Positions 1,965 to 61,368 of a DNA stretch of 64,000 nucleotides are shown piece by piece (the first letter of the stretch is position 1; each line of letters starts with the position of its first letter). The stretch spans positions 62,001-126,000 of the forward strand of contig JACQXM010000036.1 in assembly GCA_016208685.1 (NCBI GenBank). The letters run 5' to 3'. Position numbers and translations under genes: made by a program. The notes under the pieces were generated by a model. It worked only from the letters and a program-made list of their open reading frames with translations, was not told where the DNA came from and did not search any database. Source of the stretch: Planctomycetota bacterium. GTDB taxonomy: Bacteria; Planctomycetota; Phycisphaerae; UBA1845.

Positions 1965-2312
1965 ACCGTGACGCCGGGACGATCCACGTGTCGCCCGCCA
2001 ATCGCCGCTCGATGATAGCGGGAGCCGGTTCGACCCGGTAGCGCCAACCGGCGCTTCCCGGACGGGCGGACTGGTGGCGGCAGCATGGGTAGACCTGTCA
2101 CCTGTTCTACGTGCGCAACTCATCGCCGCGCGACTCGCGCCGGGGTCACAGGCGAGCGGGAAAAACGGCGCGGGATGGCGCAGGACCGCGCACGGGCCAG
2201 GGGCGGACACCTATCAGCCAGTGGCGCAAAGCGGCCTACGCGATGTAGCACCGGCATCCTGCCCGTGAAAACATGGACTGGAAGCCCATGCCACGAGTTC
2301 TGCCACAGGCTG
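1965..2312. other. Intergenic stretch, mostly a mobile repeat
   Basis: About 350 bases without a credible gene. The right-hand third is one copy of the 102-bp interspersed element described separately. The remainder is the upstream region of the FHA-PP2C gene; open frames through it have no recognisable composition. No promoter could be assigned with confidence. Confidence 0.5.
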
Positions 2313-5424: not shown

Positions 5425-6650
<1,226 letters not shown>

Positions 6651-6667
6651 GGGAGCGGGCGGAAGCA

Positions 6668-24150: not shown

Positions 24151-24245
24151 CGGCAGCCTGTGGCAAAACTCGTGGCATGGGCTTCCAGCCCATGGTTTCA
24201 CGGGCAGGATGCCCGTGCTACATCGCGTAGGTCGCCTTTCGCCGC
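24151..24245 (-). repeat. Interspersed MITE/REP-like element, copy A2 (inverted)
   Basis: Reverse-complement copy of the element found near 2.2, 32.3 and 53.1 kb. Reading the plus strand, it starts CAGCCTGTGGCAAAACTCG, passes both hairpins (ATGGGCTTCCAGCCCAT and ACGGGCAGGATGCCCGT) and reaches GCTACATCGCGTAGG. The far end has decayed and no direct repeat is evident. Confidence 0.75.
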
Positions 24246-24790
24246 GCACCGCCGCGCCGGGACGCCGCCTCTGACTGAATATGCCCGCCGCCCCGCCGCG
24301 CCTTCAGACGCCCTTGCTTCGGACACCCCGCCGTTCCGCGCGTCGGGTCGGGGCGTCCAAACCGGCGTTCGGGGAGTACTACCCCTTTTCGTCACGCCCG
24401 GCAACGGGGAATCGTCGGTTGAGCATGCAGAGGCGGTGATGGTCCCGGGCGGAGTTCGCGGGTGCGTCTCGGCAGCAGGGGCGCGATAGCCCCGTAGGGT
24501 CGGAATCGGCCCGAAGGCGGTTTGCGGATGTGACCGAAGGCAACGCTACCGCGGCGGTCGCGCGCGGGGCAGACGTAACCGGCGCGGCGGCAAGAATCAA
24601 AAACGAGAAGGGTCCCGGCGGGCGATTGCGGCGCCTCCCGTGGATGCATCGTCACCTGGAGGAGTGGACGTGTGGCATGCCCCACGCTTGCGTGGCCATG
24701 CTTGGGACGGAGCGGACGTGTGACGGGTGCCATGGCCAAGCGCAGCGCCGCCATGACGATTTCGGGGCGCAGAGCTACGAAGGCACGTGG

Positions 24791-24840
24791 GAACAGTGCC
24801 GCGACCGGCAGACAGAGCCGCGACCGTGAGGGAGCGGGCC
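24791..24840 (+). repeat. Interspersed repeat family B, double copy
   Basis: A partial copy AACAGTGCCGCGACCG is followed directly by a fuller copy ACAGAGCCGCGACCGTGAGG continuing GAGCGGGC. Same core as the two copies in and after mtnA. Confidence 0.65.
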
Positions 24841-24969
24841 TCGATCGCGACGTAGCAATGCAGCGATGTAGCGACGCCCGATCCGTACCGCGACAGGATG
24901 GAGCGGTCGGCTTGCGGCGCTCGGTGGCACGCGCGGTGCTGCGGGCGCGGGAGTCACCTGCCGGATTCG

Positions 24970-31986: not shown

Positions 31987-32180
31987 GGCACGGCGTACTA
32001 TCCAGGCAATGACCGCAGCCTGGCAAGGGGGACCGTCGCTGCCTGTTTCGGTGCATGGATGAATGTTGTGTGAAAACACGGTCGCCGGCGCCCGGGCACG
32101 GTCCTGGCCGAGGTTCCCGCAGCCGCTTGCGGCGATCCGCGGTATAATCAAACCGCGCGGCGAGCGGGAGGTGCACAGTA

Positions 32181-33509
32181 GTGGGCCGGCGGATTTGGGA
32201 CCAAGGCGCCAATCGGGGTGCGCGTAGCCCGGAGGCTATCGTACTCCGGGCACGATCTGCCCGCCCGGGCTTCGAGGCCGCCGCGCCGGCGTATCGTTGC
32301 CTAGCAGCCCGTGTCGCAAAGCGGCCTACGCGATGTAGCACGGGCGTCCTGCCCGTGAAAGCATGGGCTGGAAGCCCATGCCACGAGTTCTGCCACAGGC
32401 TGCTAGTACTGGGCATGGTCGCCCTCGCTGTCCTCGCAGTTTCTGCCGGCGTCGCGCGGGCCCAGCTCGCCCGGAAGTACGAACTTCCTGACCTCAAAGC
32501 GATGGAGGAGGCGTTCGTCCGCCTCGCGGCGCAGGTGCGGCCGAGCGTCGTGGCCCTGAACACCTACCGGGTCCGCGACCCGGCGGCGGCGCGGGCGGCG
32601 CAGATTCCCATCAAGATCAGCCAGGGCTCCGGCCTCATCATGGACGCCGAAGGGTACATCGCGACCAATCGCCACGTCCTGGAAGACGCGAATTACTTCG
32701 TCGCCCTGCTACATGACGGCCGGCGGTTCGACGCCACGGTGCGGCAAACGGATCTGCGCAGCGACCTGGCGGTACTCAAGATCGACGCGGAGGGTTTGGT
32801 GCCCGTCCGCTGGGGAGACCTGGCGTCCGTCAAGGTTGGGCAGTGGGCCATGGCCTGCGGAAACCCCTTCGGGCTGGCGCTCGACAACGGATCTCCGTCC
32901 GTGACCGTAGGCACCGTCAGCGCGCTGGGCCGCGAGATGACCCGGCGTTTGCAGGTGGATCCGCTGGTGCAGTATTACGGCAACCTCATCGAAACCTCGT
33001 CGCCCGTGAATCCCGGCAGCAGCGGAGGGCCGCTGTTCAACGTGGACGGCGAGGTCATCGGCATCGTGACCGCCATCGAGACCCGTTCCGGCGTAAACGA
33101 GGGCGTCGGATTTGCCATCCCTGTCGATCGGAACACGCGGCACATCCTCGAGACGCTCAAGACGGGCGAAAAAGTGCGCTACGGGTACCTGGGAGTCACG
33201 GTGGAGAACGTGGATCCGCCGGCGTCCAGGCGCGTGGCAGACACCGGCTCGGCGCGCGGGGTGCGCATTACCGTAGTGGACCCGGCCGACGGACCGGCCG
33301 CCAAGGCTGAGCTCCGCCCCGGGGACGTCATCCTCGACATCGGCGGCACGCCCATCGACGACGCGGACCAGCTCATTCGGGTCATCAGCTTTCTGCCCGT
33401 CGGCTCTCAGGTTGACATAACGTACACGCGCCGACAGGTGAAGCGCCGAACGACGGCCGTGCTGGGAGATCGGCATGAAATGCTGCGCATTGAGTCGCCG
33501 GACCGCTGA
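32181..33509 (+). CDS. HtrA/DegP-like serine protease with PDZ domain
   Basis: A trypsin-like exported protease, up to 442 residues. The hydrophobic signal segment is GMVALAVLAVSAGVARA, followed by the mature start near QLARKYELPD. The catalytic triad is in IATNRHVLE (His), TDLRSDLAVLKI (Asp) and NPGSSGGPLF (Ser); a single PDZ domain occupies the C-terminal 100 residues (GVRITVVDPADGPAAKAELRPGD). It should degrade or chaperone misfolded envelope proteins. GTG 32181 has an upstream GGGAGG nine bases away and is chosen. ATG 32415 would give a bare signal peptide lacking basic residues. Codons 42-75 are encoded by a mobile element inserted in frame. Confidence 0.88.
   Translation: MGRRIWDQGANRGARSPEAIVLRARSARPGFEAAAPAYRCLAARVAKRPTRCSTGVLPVKAWAGSPCHEFCHRLLVLGMVALAVLAVSAGVARAQLARKYELPDLKAMEEAFVRLAAQVRPSVVALNTYRVRDPAAARAAQIPIKISQGSGLIMDAEGYIATNRHVLEDANYFVALLHDGRRFDATVRQTDLRSDLAVLKIDAEGLVPVRWGDLASVKVGQWAMACGNPFGLALDNGSPSVTVGTVSALGREMTRRLQVDPLVQYYGNLIETSSPVNPGSSGGPLFNVDGEVIGIVTAIETRSGVNEGVGFAIPVDRNTRHILETLKTGEKVRYGYLGVTVENVDPPASRRVADTGSARGVRITVVDPADGPAAKAELRPGDVILDIGGTPIDDADQLIRVISFLPVGSQVDITYTRRQVKRRTTAVLGDRHEMLRIESPDR
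32301..32406 (+). repeat. Interspersed MITE/REP-like element, copy A3, inside the protease gene
   Basis: A 98-bp core flanked by CTAG direct repeats (32301-32304 and 32403-32406). Terminal inverted repeats read CTAGCAGCCCGTG on the left and, from the right end inwards, CTAGCAGCCTGTGGCAG. Internal hairpins are CGGGCGTCCTGCCCG and ATGGGCTGGAAGCCCAT. Net addition relative to an empty CTAG site is 102 bp, 34 codons, so the host frame is unbroken. Confidence 0.85.
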
Positions 33510-53063: not shown

Positions 53064-53165
53064 CCAGCAGCCCATGGCAAAAGTCGAGGATCGGGCGTGG
53101 CACGGGCATCCTGCCCGTGGAGGCATAGGCTGGAAGCTCATGCTACGCATTTCGCCACGGACTAC
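53064..53165 (+). repeat. Interspersed MITE/REP-like element, copy A4 (diverged)
   Basis: Same order of parts as copy A3: left end CAGCAGCCCATGGCAAAA, hairpin CACGGGCATCCTGCCCGTG, second hairpin with two mismatches (ATAGGCTGGAAGCTCAT followed by GCTACG), right end CGCCACGG. GTAGC heads flank both hairpins when each is read outwards, like a REP doublet. Older than the other copies. Confidence 0.65.
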
Positions 53166-57891: not shown

Positions 57892-60800
57892 GTGTATCAG
57901 GCTCCGGACTACAAGGACGTTCCGATCCTCCTCGTCGACGCAGTCGGCTTTTCGCAGCTCGAGACCGTCGAGCGAAAGCGGGCGTTGCTCGCGTCATTGC
58001 AGGACATTCTGCGCGCCGCGGCGAAGTTCTTCATGCCGTACGGCGATCCGTGGCAGAAGTGGCGACGTCACGGCACCGGCGACGGCTACTACTTCATCTT
58101 TGACGGCAGCTTGGGCCCGCAAGTGGCCCTGAAATACGCGCTGGACATTAAGACCCGCTGCTCTGAGTTCAATCGCGAAAGTGGCCGCGACATTGGCCTC
58201 CGCCTGCGCCAGTCCCTCGCCTTCGGCGACGTTGAACTGGTGGACGACCAGTTGCTCAGCGAAGCGTTCATCGAGGCCGAACGTTTCATCAGCAACGCCG
58301 CCTTCAAGCGGCATGCCGACCAAGCCGAGGACCCGGCGCCGGTAGTGGCCACTGAGCTCTTCCACTTCCAGTACGGTCGGGACCGTAAGCAAGAGCCAAA
58401 ACCGTTCGAACAACTCGAGGCGCTTACCTGGCGGCCGATCGCGTTCGCGGACAAGCACGGCAAGGCGTACCGCGGTTATTACCTGGGGGACGACTGGCGC
58501 GGCGAAGAGCCTGAAGCGCCGGCCGCCGCGCCCCCGGTCGAGCCCGCGTTTCGCATTCTCATTCTCGTGGCCCATAGCTCCGCCGGGCCATTACCGGAGG
58601 CGATCGATCTTCTCAATTGCGCGGTTGCCGATCTGAAGACCGCCGGGGTTTCGCTGGAGGTGCGTCTGAACCTCGCTTCGGTCAACGCGCTGCGACTCGA
58701 GGCGCAGGAGGGGTGCGACCTACTGATCTACTTCGGGCATGGAAACGACGTGGGGCAGTTGTTCTTCCTGGACGGCCCGGTGGACTACGCCGCGCTCTCG
58801 CCCCGCATCGGATTACAGAAGTTCTGGGAGGAATTGCCCGCCTGCCTTATCTTCGCTTGCCACGGGAAGAGTTTCGCGGAAGCGTTGCCGTGCCCCTGGA
58901 TTGCGTTCGGCGACACCATCCTGCGCGAGGCCCCCAAGGGCTTTCTGCATGCCTTCGCCGCGGCACTGAAGACCATGACCATCGACCAGGCGGTCAAGAA
59001 GGCCGCGGCGCATTGCCAACTGACGATGCAATCCAGCTTTGCCGCGGCGATCTGCCAATCTGCTTCCGCATTTCCGACGCGGCGCCTCCCGGCGGGCGAA
59101 GCTCGAGTGATTCAGCAGTCGCCGGCGACCTCAGGACGCTACGAGGTTGACTACGGGAACATCGAGCACGACGGAGCGGTATACCCGGAGCACGATCCGT
59201 TCGTGGGACGGGCCGCCGAGCTGGCTGAACTGGCGCGACTTCCTGACCCCGGCACGGAAGTTCCGGTCGTGCAGCGCTTCTGGGTGCACGGCGGCGCCGG
59301 GCTGGGCAAAAGCGCGCTGCTGCGGCAGCACGCGGTGTTCGTACGCGACACGGCTTTCCGGCCGGAGACCGAGCCGGTATGGCTGCTACACGCCTACTGT
59401 CAGAACTGCGTACTGCCGGGCGACGTGGAGAAGCTCCTCTGCGCCAAGGCCGCACGGTTGTACGGACTAACTCCTGCGCCGAGTGACCTGCGCGGCCTTA
59501 TGCGGGCTCTGCGACAAAGGCATGGCGCGCACGTCTGGCTTCTGGATGACCTCACGTACCTGCGCGATCCAAAGGGCGATCCGGAACAAGCCTATCGTCT
59601 GACGGGAGTACTCGCTGACCTGGCACGAGAGAACGGCGTTTTCATCCAGCTTTTGTTCAGCGCTCGTTTCGGTCCGCCCCAGGGCTGGCGGGCGATCGAG
59701 CTTACCCCGCTTAGTGACGCTGAGTCGCTGGAGCTGGGGGCACGGATCTGCCGGGAGGCGAAGCACGAGTTTACGCCCGCTGAGCAACTAGCGGCGCGGG
59801 AATTGCTCGCCCGGTGCGGACGATCCACGGCGCATTACAAACGTGCACTGCTCCTGGCCATGTTACGGATGACTACCATCGCGGAATACGCCGAGCAACT
59901 GGACGACCCCGGGTCGCTGGAGAACCTCAACGAGGACGAGTTCAGCGATCGGATGTTGCGGGGCGAGATCGCAGGCCTCGTTGACCTGGAGGCGCGGGAT
60001 GGTTTCGCCTACTCCGAGTTCTTTGGCCTCTACGAGCCGCTCATACTTCGCGTGGGCGATTTTTCCGAGTGCGAACTTCTCGAGTGGCTCGGGGAGCGGC
60101 TCTGCCCGGGACCTTCGACGATCGCGCGGGGCACGCGGCTTCGCAATGGGCTGACGCAGCTTACGCGTTTCGGATACCTCGCCGTCCGCAAGGACGATCG
60201 AGAGTTGCGCTTTTACATGCCCCCCAACCAGCGCCTGGCGTTTCGACGCATGGCCGCGTCGGCCCCGGACTTGCCGGCGGAGGTCCCATTCCGGGCGCCG
60301 AAGGCGCGGCTCTCGGCGGCTCTGGAGCGGCTCGCGAAGGGATCGCGGGACGCAATCACCGAGGTCCTGCAGCTTGAACGAGACTACTCCGGGCACATCC
60401 ACATCCCGGACGCCGCGGAAGCCGTGGTCGTGGGGATGCTCGTCCGAGCCGAATTGGCAGGCGCGTTAGCCGGGCTACACTTGGGACTCGCCGTCTACGA
60501 CGACGTCGTGCGGCGCTTCGGGGACCGGCCGGAAAGCGGCATCGCGGAGCTGGTGGCCAAGGGGCTGGTCAAGAAGGGAGCCGCGCTGGGGGCGCTGGAT
60601 CGGTTCGAGGAGGAGTTGGGGGTCTACGACGAGGTGGTGCGTCGCTTCGAGGACCGTCCCGAGAGCGGCATCGCGGGGACGGTGGCCGTGGCGCTGTTCA
60701 ACAAAGGGGTCAGGCTGGAGGCGCCGCTGGATCGGTTCGACGAGGCGTTGGGGGTCTACGACGAGGTAGTGCGTCGCTTCGGGGACCGTCCTGAGAGCGG

Positions 60801-61368
60801 CATCGCGGAGAGGGTGGCTAAGGCGCTGTTCAACAAGGGGGTCAGGCTGGGGGCGCTGGATCGGTTCGAGGAGGCGCTGGGGGTCTACGACGAGGTAGTG
60901 CGTCGGTTCGGGGACCGGCCGGAAAGCGGCATCGCGGAGCTGGTGGCCATGGCGCTGTTCAACAAGGGGGTCAGGCTGGGAGCGCTGGTTCGGTTCGAGG
61001 AGGAGCTGGGAGTCTACGACGACGTGGTGCGGCGCTTCGGGGACCGGCCGGAAAGCGGCATTGCGGAGCAGGTGGCCAAGGCGTTGTTCAACAAGGGGGG
61101 CAGGCTGGTGGCGCTGGATCGGTCCGAGGAGGCGCTGGGAGTCTACGACGACGTGGTGCGACGCTTCGGGGACCGGCCGGAGAGCGGCATCGCGGAGCGG
61201 GTGGCCAAGGCGATGTGCGGGCGGGTCTTAGCGCTAGTGGGCGCGGGCAAACGCCCGGAAGCAGAAACGGCCCTCACGGAAGCCGAGCGGTTCATCGCCG
61301 GGCGTCCGGAACCCGCGATCCGGGAACTCTTCGCTCAATTCCAGTCCGCACTTCGACAGGCTGAATGA
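57892..61368 (+). CDS. Nucleotide-cyclase-like / CHAT protease / STAND NTPase / TPR fusion
   Basis: A 1158-residue soluble protein (start GTG; ATG 57772 would add 40 residues that overlap the TolB remnant). Residues 9-165 resemble a class III nucleotide cyclase: ILLVDAVGFSQL (metal Asp 16) and HGTGDGYYFIFDG (metal Asp 64), with EAERF (Arg 131) where cyclases have N-x-A-x-R. Residues 219-400 are a CHAT caspase-like protease: YFGHGND (His 283) and IFACHGKSF (Cys 323). Residues 435-660 are a STAND NTPase: FVGR, GGAGLGKS, Walker B VWLLDD. About 680-800 looks winged-helix-like, and about 845-1140 holds six 43-residue TPR-like repeats. The plan is that of an NLR-like sensor: repeats sense, STAND switches, CHAT cuts. 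The adenine-selecting lysine position is His 60 and the transition-state Asn is absent, so cyclase activity or product may be unusual. Confidence 0.85.
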   Translation: MYQAPDYKDVPILLVDAVGFSQLETVERKRALLASLQDILRAAAKFFMPYGDPWQKWRRHGTGDGYYFIFDGSLGPQVALKYALDIKTRCSEFNRESGRDIGLRLRQSLAFGDVELVDDQLLSEAFIEAERFISNAAFKRHADQAEDPAPVVATELFHFQYGRDRKQEPKPFEQLEALTWRPIAFADKHGKAYRGYYLGDDWRGEEPEAPAAAPPVEPAFRILILVAHSSAGPLPEAIDLLNCAVADLKTAGVSLEVRLNLASVNALRLEAQEGCDLLIYFGHGNDVGQLFFLDGPVDYAALSPRIGLQKFWEELPACLIFACHGKSFAEALPCPWIAFGDTILREAPKGFLHAFAAALKTMTIDQAVKKAAAHCQLTMQSSFAAAICQSASAFPTRRLPAGEARVIQQSPATSGRYEVDYGNIEHDGAVYPEHDPFVGRAAELAELARLPDPGTEVPVVQRFWVHGGAGLGKSALLRQHAVFVRDTAFRPETEPVWLLHAYCQNCVLPGDVEKLLCAKAARLYGLTPAPSDLRGLMRALRQRHGAHVWLLDDLTYLRDPKGDPEQAYRLTGVLADLARENGVFIQLLFSARFGPPQGWRAIELTPLSDAESLELGARICREAKHEFTPAEQLAARELLARCGRSTAHYKRALLLAMLRMTTIAEYAEQLDDPGSLENLNEDEFSDRMLRGEIAGLVDLEARDGFAYSEFFGLYEPLILRVGDFSECELLEWLGERLCPGPSTIARGTRLRNGLTQLTRFGYLAVRKDDRELRFYMPPNQRLAFRRMAASAPDLPAEVPFRAPKARLSAALERLAKGSRDAITEVLQLERDYSGHIHIPDAAEAVVVGMLVRAELAGALAGLHLGLAVYDDVVRRFGDRPESGIAELVAKGLVKKGAALGALDRFEEELGVYDEVVRRFEDRPESGIAGTVAVALFNKGVRLEAPLDRFDEALGVYDEVVRRFGDRPESGIAERVAKALFNKGVRLGALDRFEEALGVYDEVVRRFGDRPESGIAELVAMALFNKGVRLGALVRFEEELGVYDDVVRRFGDRPESGIAEQVAKALFNKGGRLVALDRSEEALGVYDDVVRRFGDRPESGIAERVAKAMCGRVLALVGAGKRPEAETALTEAERFIAGRPEPAIRELFAQFQSALRQAE
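60478..61245 (+). repeat. Six tandem 129-bp TPR-like coding repeats
   Basis: Units beginning GTCTACGAC at 60493, 60622, 60754, 60883, 61012 and 61141, period 129 bp (one interval 132). Each encodes VYD-E/D-VVRRFGDRPESGIAE and a following helix VAKALFNKGVRLGALDRFEE. Near-identity at DNA level indicates recent duplication or gene conversion. Confidence 0.9.

Follow-up and report, generated by a model that had tools for sequence, protein, structure and literature searches.

Given that the htrA-like gene shown above carries, within its first codons, a sequence repeated across the genome, we questioned what this sequence is, how the gene has remained readable around it, and from which start codon the protease is now made. 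The gene lies in a 64,000-nucleotide stretch of DNA (the window) on contig 13 of a 4.79-Mb planctomycete draft genome. The original prediction, made from the letters alone, was of an HtrA-like protease gene in which a mobile element had inserted in frame at a CTAG target, with a Shine-Dalgarno (SD)-preceded start before it and the signal-peptide core after it, and all of this is supported by the analysis below. The two CTAG copies and the 98 bp between them (copy A3, Table 1) likewise confirm the predicted net gain of 102 bp, or 34 codons. Because the 98-bp element and its 4-bp duplication together are divisible by three, and the htrA frame through them is free of stops, the gene stayed readable; its ORF remains open from GTG32181 (named, like the starts below, by position) to 33509. 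The family consensus, from which A3 differs by five substitutions, has one stop-free phase out of three whichever way it is read. With a prior of about 1 in 3, the open frame at A3 is therefore unremarkable on its own.

Table 1. Features of the htrA-like locus and further copies of the element. Positions refer to the window, except in the last two rows.
Feature	Position	Strand	Basis or remark
TATAAT box, 38 bp ahead of GTG32181	32143..32148	+	one of four in the window, both strands
Shine-Dalgarno GGGAGGT of GTG32181	32166..32172	+	-11.6 kcal/mol with anti-SD
htrA-like gene, 442 aa from GTG32181	32181..33509	+	Trypsin_2 and PDZ domains, ORF
Coding stretch exceeding that of relatives by about 27 codons	32193..32300	+	single copy, length comparison
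Left target duplication CTAG	32301..32304	.	sequence
98-bp MITE, copy A3	32305..32402	+	about 90 copies in genome, alignment
Left terminal inverted repeat	32305..32320	+	alignment of copies
GTAG-REP-like pair, opposed hairpins	32335..32384	+	matched, mostly as core only, in 14 of 59 relatives
In-frame GTG inside element, rival start, in hairpin arm	32355..32357	+	ORF list
Right terminal inverted repeat	32387..32402	-	alignment of copies
Right target duplication CTAG	32403..32406	.	sequence
Predicted signal-peptide hydrophobic core and cleavage region (VLGMVALAVLAVSAGVARA)	32406..32462	+	translation, hydrophobicity
In-frame ATG, start raised against the original prediction	32415..32417	+	no SD, -2.5 kcal/mol
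Other copy, CTAT/CTAT duplication (L004)	2215..2312	+	alignment of copies
Other copy, degraded left end (L029)	24154..24251	-	alignment of copies
Divergent copy	53066..53165	+	repeat and profile search
Pseudopilin, start and leader apparently within element copy	L142 (G000:C44:77215-78702), element 703-803
TPR protein, degenerate in-frame copy just ahead of hydrophobic leader core	L168 (G000:C27:56323-57824), element 702-799

Searches of its own genome placed the element at no fewer than 40 sites by blastn (at least 40 copies) and in about 90 distinct places by profile search, whose 143 rows counted many copies on both strands. We fetched 90 copies (L001-L030, L133-L172 and L197-L216), 60 of them exactly 98 bp long; copies in register share the ends CAGCCCGTGGCGAAAA...TTTTGCCACAGGCTG, with terminal inverted repeats of CAGCCYGTGGCRAAA at both ends. 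TA was present at both flanks in 24 of 70 copies, and in 17 of these 24 the 4-bp flanks were identical (CTAG, CTAC, CTAT, CTAA, ATAG, GTAG or ATAA), compared with a mean of 3.2 expected by shuffling; 17 was reached in 0 of 10,000 shuffles. Adding the 20 weaker copies (n = 90) left both counts at 24 and 17, with identical flanks in 19 of 90 overall. The target duplication is thus 4 bp, NTAN, and every full-length insertion brings in 102 bp, an integral number of codons. Being short, without a transposase gene, present in many copies and equipped with terminal inverted repeats and a target duplication, the element is a true MITE. Two other repeats were noticed in the window: a tandem family at 60464-61345 that repeats every 129-132 bp (about 43 codons), its members 64-91% identical to a reference copy, and a 32-nt repeat, ACAGAGCCGCGACCGTAAGGGAGCGGGC, at 5857-5888, 6633-6664 and 24812-24843, similar to a stretch in another locus (L127).

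As a single strand, A3 has a much more favourable predicted fold than shuffled sequences (z -5.0, DNA parameters). Its core (element positions 31-81) consists of two predicted opposed hairpins, the first led by GTAG, and in this layout it matches the GTAG-REP dimers portrayed in PMC3733652. Element matches were found in 14 of 59 relatives, mostly of the core alone, and about 67 of the roughly 91 listed matches outside the own genome start at positions 28-31, that is, at GTAG (counted by eye). The mobile frame is made up of the outer 30 and 17 bases. Among relatives, IS5-family ISs end in GAGCCTATCCCAAAAC after NTA, GAGGCTGTTTCAAAAC after CTAA, and similar sequences, and one in the own genome ends in GAGCCTCTAACAAAAC after CTAA; the element ends in CAGCCTGTGGCAAAAC after NTAN and matches the end of the own-genome IS in L127 at 12 of 16 positions. 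On account of these IS5-like ends, the transposase that mobilised the MITE was probably of the IS5 family. A parent IS with exact ends was not found in a DDE_Tnp_1 search of the own genome (6 matches), nor was any IS found there between paired element ends at IS spacing with at most one mismatch, in a draft that may miss ISs. Thirty loci from an IS5-type transposase search of 100 genomes, including this one, yielded only similar ends. An RNA function is not claimed for the element, since only 1 of 20 predicted pairs showed changes on both sides and Rfam gave no match.

The gene lies between surE upstream and an endonuclease V gene downstream, and its product has Trypsin_2 (1.7e-30) and PDZ_2 (5.6e-14) domains. 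Because it missed the curated NCBIfam cut-off for the Do family (252 bits against 416), we regard it from these matches as an HtrA-like (S1C) protease and do not file it as DegP/Do. The columns of the catalytic His, Asp and Ser motifs are invariant in 8 sequences (this one and 7 relatives), and the catalytic and PDZ parts look intact. The named relatives are Planctomycetota and Phycisphaerae metagenome genomes, whose orthologues are 43-62% identical and have start regions that could not be aligned; the element was not found at this site in any relative examined. Immediately ahead of the htrA promoter, the closest relative has a MITE-like inverted repeat of another kind, whose ends are GGCACTCCAACAAAAC (L032:1221-1318). 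The hydrophobicity maximum of the product falls directly after the element. Structure prediction was poor (mean pLDDT 59.9), and residues 1-75, all below 50, get no confident fold in the model. What the gene encodes is probably a pre-protein in which a long cytoplasmic tail comes before a normal export signal.

We assessed which start codon this pre-protein is likely to use. Three in-frame starts precede the protease domain: GTG32181, GTG32355 inside the element and ATG32415, reduced to the first and last when the element is removed. Pairing with the anti-SD was -11.6 kcal/mol for GTG32181 compared with -2.7 for GTG32355 and -2.5 for ATG32415. Among 4937 start-like triplets in the window, 0.14% pair as strongly as GTG32181, and 55% pair as well as GTG32355 or better. 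Across 36 relatives (33 after removal of duplicates), a start at -5 kcal/mol or stronger was present in 32 of 33; the strongest start lay 33-46 codons from a DLKALE-type anchor in 25 of 33 (median 42, range 22-99), and a TATAAT/C box lay within 90 bp of it, again in 25 of 33. The gap from box to start is 38 bp here, compared with 55-62 bp in most of the relatives that have a box. A search for DNA homology between this start region and that of the closest relative gave a score of 37 against a shuffle mean of 37.7, with 295 of 500 shuffles as good; the start region being unalignable beyond shuffles, homology of the start is argued from layout only.

From GTG32181, the anchor is 103 codons away, against the median of 42 in the 33 relatives. 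The MITE accounts for 34 of these 61 extra codons and leaves about 27 others. Removing it was predicted to restore a CTAG target and a shorter n-region: the single CTAG is indeed recovered, whereas the n-region would not become short, with 69 codons still separating start and anchor. The excess stretch is single-copy in the genome and includes a GTAG-led hairpin at 32224-32251; hairpin patterns built from the stretch gave 1 and 4 matches, the site itself included. A second insertion at 32178-32300 was considered and rejected, the best other repeat match being only 30 bp (E 0.003). Under the codon model, which was trained on 36 of the window's ORFs and also served for the survey of copies below, the 40 codons before the element scored -0.01 per codon and so gave no coding signal. 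It would be unusual for an n-region to span about 75 residues.

We also surveyed where copies of the family lie. Coding sequence in frame on both sides of the element was seen in 0 of 90 copies. Reconstructed empty sites fell inside a coding ORF, in any frame, in 3 of 90 cases compared with 100 of 258 CTAN sites in the window, and on the stop of such an ORF in 23 of 90 compared with 23 of 258; the control is rough, because it uses a single window and a simple coding model. About a quarter of the empty sites are thus on a stop codon, and the duplicated target therefore restores the stop. Coding-like ORFs stopped in the target-duplication flank in 32 of 90 copies, a count that includes a probably spurious antisense ORF at htrA (L001). 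The element family avoids gene interiors and favours stop codons, a pattern in which target preference is inseparable from selection after insertion. In 19 copies, a total of 20 ORFs cross the element without a stop and have a coding 3' part. The gene plainly begins after the element at triosephosphate isomerase (L167), a response regulator (L165) and quinolinate phosphoribosyltransferase (L153).

Two further copies are in frame at leaders, as at htrA, and all three directly precede a hydrophobic core or prepilin cleavage site. One is in a gene without a Pfam match (L142) whose product we take to be a pseudopilin from its LTLLEV leader. Its only starts near the distance seen in relatives, an ATG 19 codons from LTLLEV (-2.5 kcal/mol) and a GTG 17 codons away (-6.5), are both in the element; those upstream of it are 67-118 codons away. 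Judged from the sequence, the start codon of this pseudopilin may be supplied by the element. The other copy precedes the TPR protein (L168), which has several start candidates, all weak. It is possible, and we suggest it tentatively as less than an even chance, that the family repeatedly rewrites host leaders at these three genes, with the start and basic leader of the pseudopilin (MPVLHRVGRFSPRAAERAG before LTLLEV) supplied by the element. Leaders would then be soft spots where a MITE enters proteins and replaces native starts. Elsewhere, a partial element lies directly ahead of an ORF with a GGQ motif (SRSGGPGGQNVNKV; L215, G000:C63:75505-76948), presumably release-factor-like, the start of which may likewise lie in or ahead of the element.

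For the htrA-like gene, we think it probable, if by no means assured, that a MITE mobilised by an IS5-family transposase sits in the leader, that the start is still GTG32181, and that the insert is translated and near-neutral. The MITE would have entered a CTAG downstream of the start codon and ahead of the signal-peptide core, duplicating its 4-bp target, and the frame would have been kept by length and luck. Initiation would remain at the SD-preceded GTG32181, the translated element would form part of a cytoplasmic n-region that is long, basic and probably unstructured, and the unchanged hydrophobic core would export or anchor the protease. The insert would most likely be neutral or nearly so, because leaders tolerate such insertions and gene interiors do not. 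GTG32355 could instead be the working start, yielding MKAWAGSPCHEFCHRLLVLGMVALAVLAVSAGVARA and making the upstream ORF a leader RNA or decoy. Its leader would be of ancestral length (45 codons to the anchor against the relatives' median of 42), the codons upstream fail to score as coding, and the pseudopilin has starts at a family-typical distance only inside its element. However, GTG32355 has no SD and pairs no better than a typical triplet of the window as counted above, it lies within a hairpin arm, and a strong in-frame SD start stands upstream, which together make it an unlikely start.

Were translation to begin at ATG32415, the element would be 5' untranslated region, and its hairpins might influence mRNA stability or translation, a reading often favoured for REPs at N-termini. 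PMC3733652 argues that many NH2-terminal REPs are non-coding, and the element strand folds well beyond shuffles. This start, which the original prediction had itself raised, is nevertheless disfavoured by its missing SD and weak pairing, and by a leader without a basic n-region that would place it 25 codons from the anchor, closer than the 33-46 codons of 25 of 33 relatives; we hold its use to be improbable. Modelled opening energies of the upstream SD region were about equal with (19.2 kcal/mol) and without (18.8 kcal/mol) the element, which argues against such a regulatory role; no effect of the element on SD accessibility was seen. The original prediction also allowed that the element had been domesticated into coding sequence, its residues being selected for, for example, slowed export or altered localisation. 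An intact frame despite five substitutions and the two other leader insertions would fit this, but five substitutions seldom make a stop by chance and residues 1-75 have pLDDT values below 50 in what is a poor model overall. We found no evidence of selection on the inserted residues and no relative with the element at this site, and consider domestication very unlikely. That the sequence is a structural repeat or an assembly artefact is the least credible reading: nothing found speaks for it, its sharp 98-bp boundaries and some 90 sites on many contigs speak against it, and the target duplications refute it. Continued initiation at GTG32181 through a tolerated MITE is thus the reading we retain.

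In-frame MITEs and REPs are already known in other bacteria, as the papers cited below describe. To these the present case adds an example from a planctomycete, in which a MITE has entered coding sequence, together with a chimeric MITE that has a REP-dimer core, a rough measure of its insertion bias and, in a pseudopilin, a leader that the element may supply. Our literature search found no paper on an in-frame MITE in a signal peptide and none on an IS5-family MITE with a CTAG target site, which does not prove their absence in print. IS5-family ISs resemble the element in their GAGCCTNTNNCAAAAC-like ends after NTA and their TA-centred targets; the similar ones are presumably of the IS427-like group. 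The two differ in the first end base (G against C), and the exact ends were absent from the own genome and the 30 loci.

According to PMC3733652, the termini of GTAG REPs give TAG stops to flanking ORFs or contact stop codons. GTAG-REP dimers are like the element in having opposed hairpins, the first GTAG-led, and termini that provide TAG stops. REPs are not known to have terminal inverted repeats or a 4-bp target duplication, whereas here the REP pair lies inside a 98-bp unit that has both. ERIC, YPAL and the 107-bp Correia element are short, have TA-type ends and form in-frame fusions, and in Yersinia the predicted signal peptide of the exported protein YPO1552 is partly built by such an element (PMC2229807). 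Their ends, target and phylum are different, and unlike in those cases no new gene arises here; instead, the n-region is lengthened in a member of a known protease family. If the pseudopilin case is true, a conserved protein owes its start codon and leader to a transposon. The RPEs of Rickettsia, about 100-150 bp, occupy unrelated genes in frame and leave them readable (PMC10969869, PMC2229807). The element resembles them in this description. However, RPEs are frequent inside conserved proteins, whereas none of the 90 copies here has in-frame coding sequence on both sides and the tolerated sites are leaders. Across the 90 copies surveyed, the surviving insertions of this family are those at stop codons, in leaders or outside genes, and hardly any lie in gene interiors.
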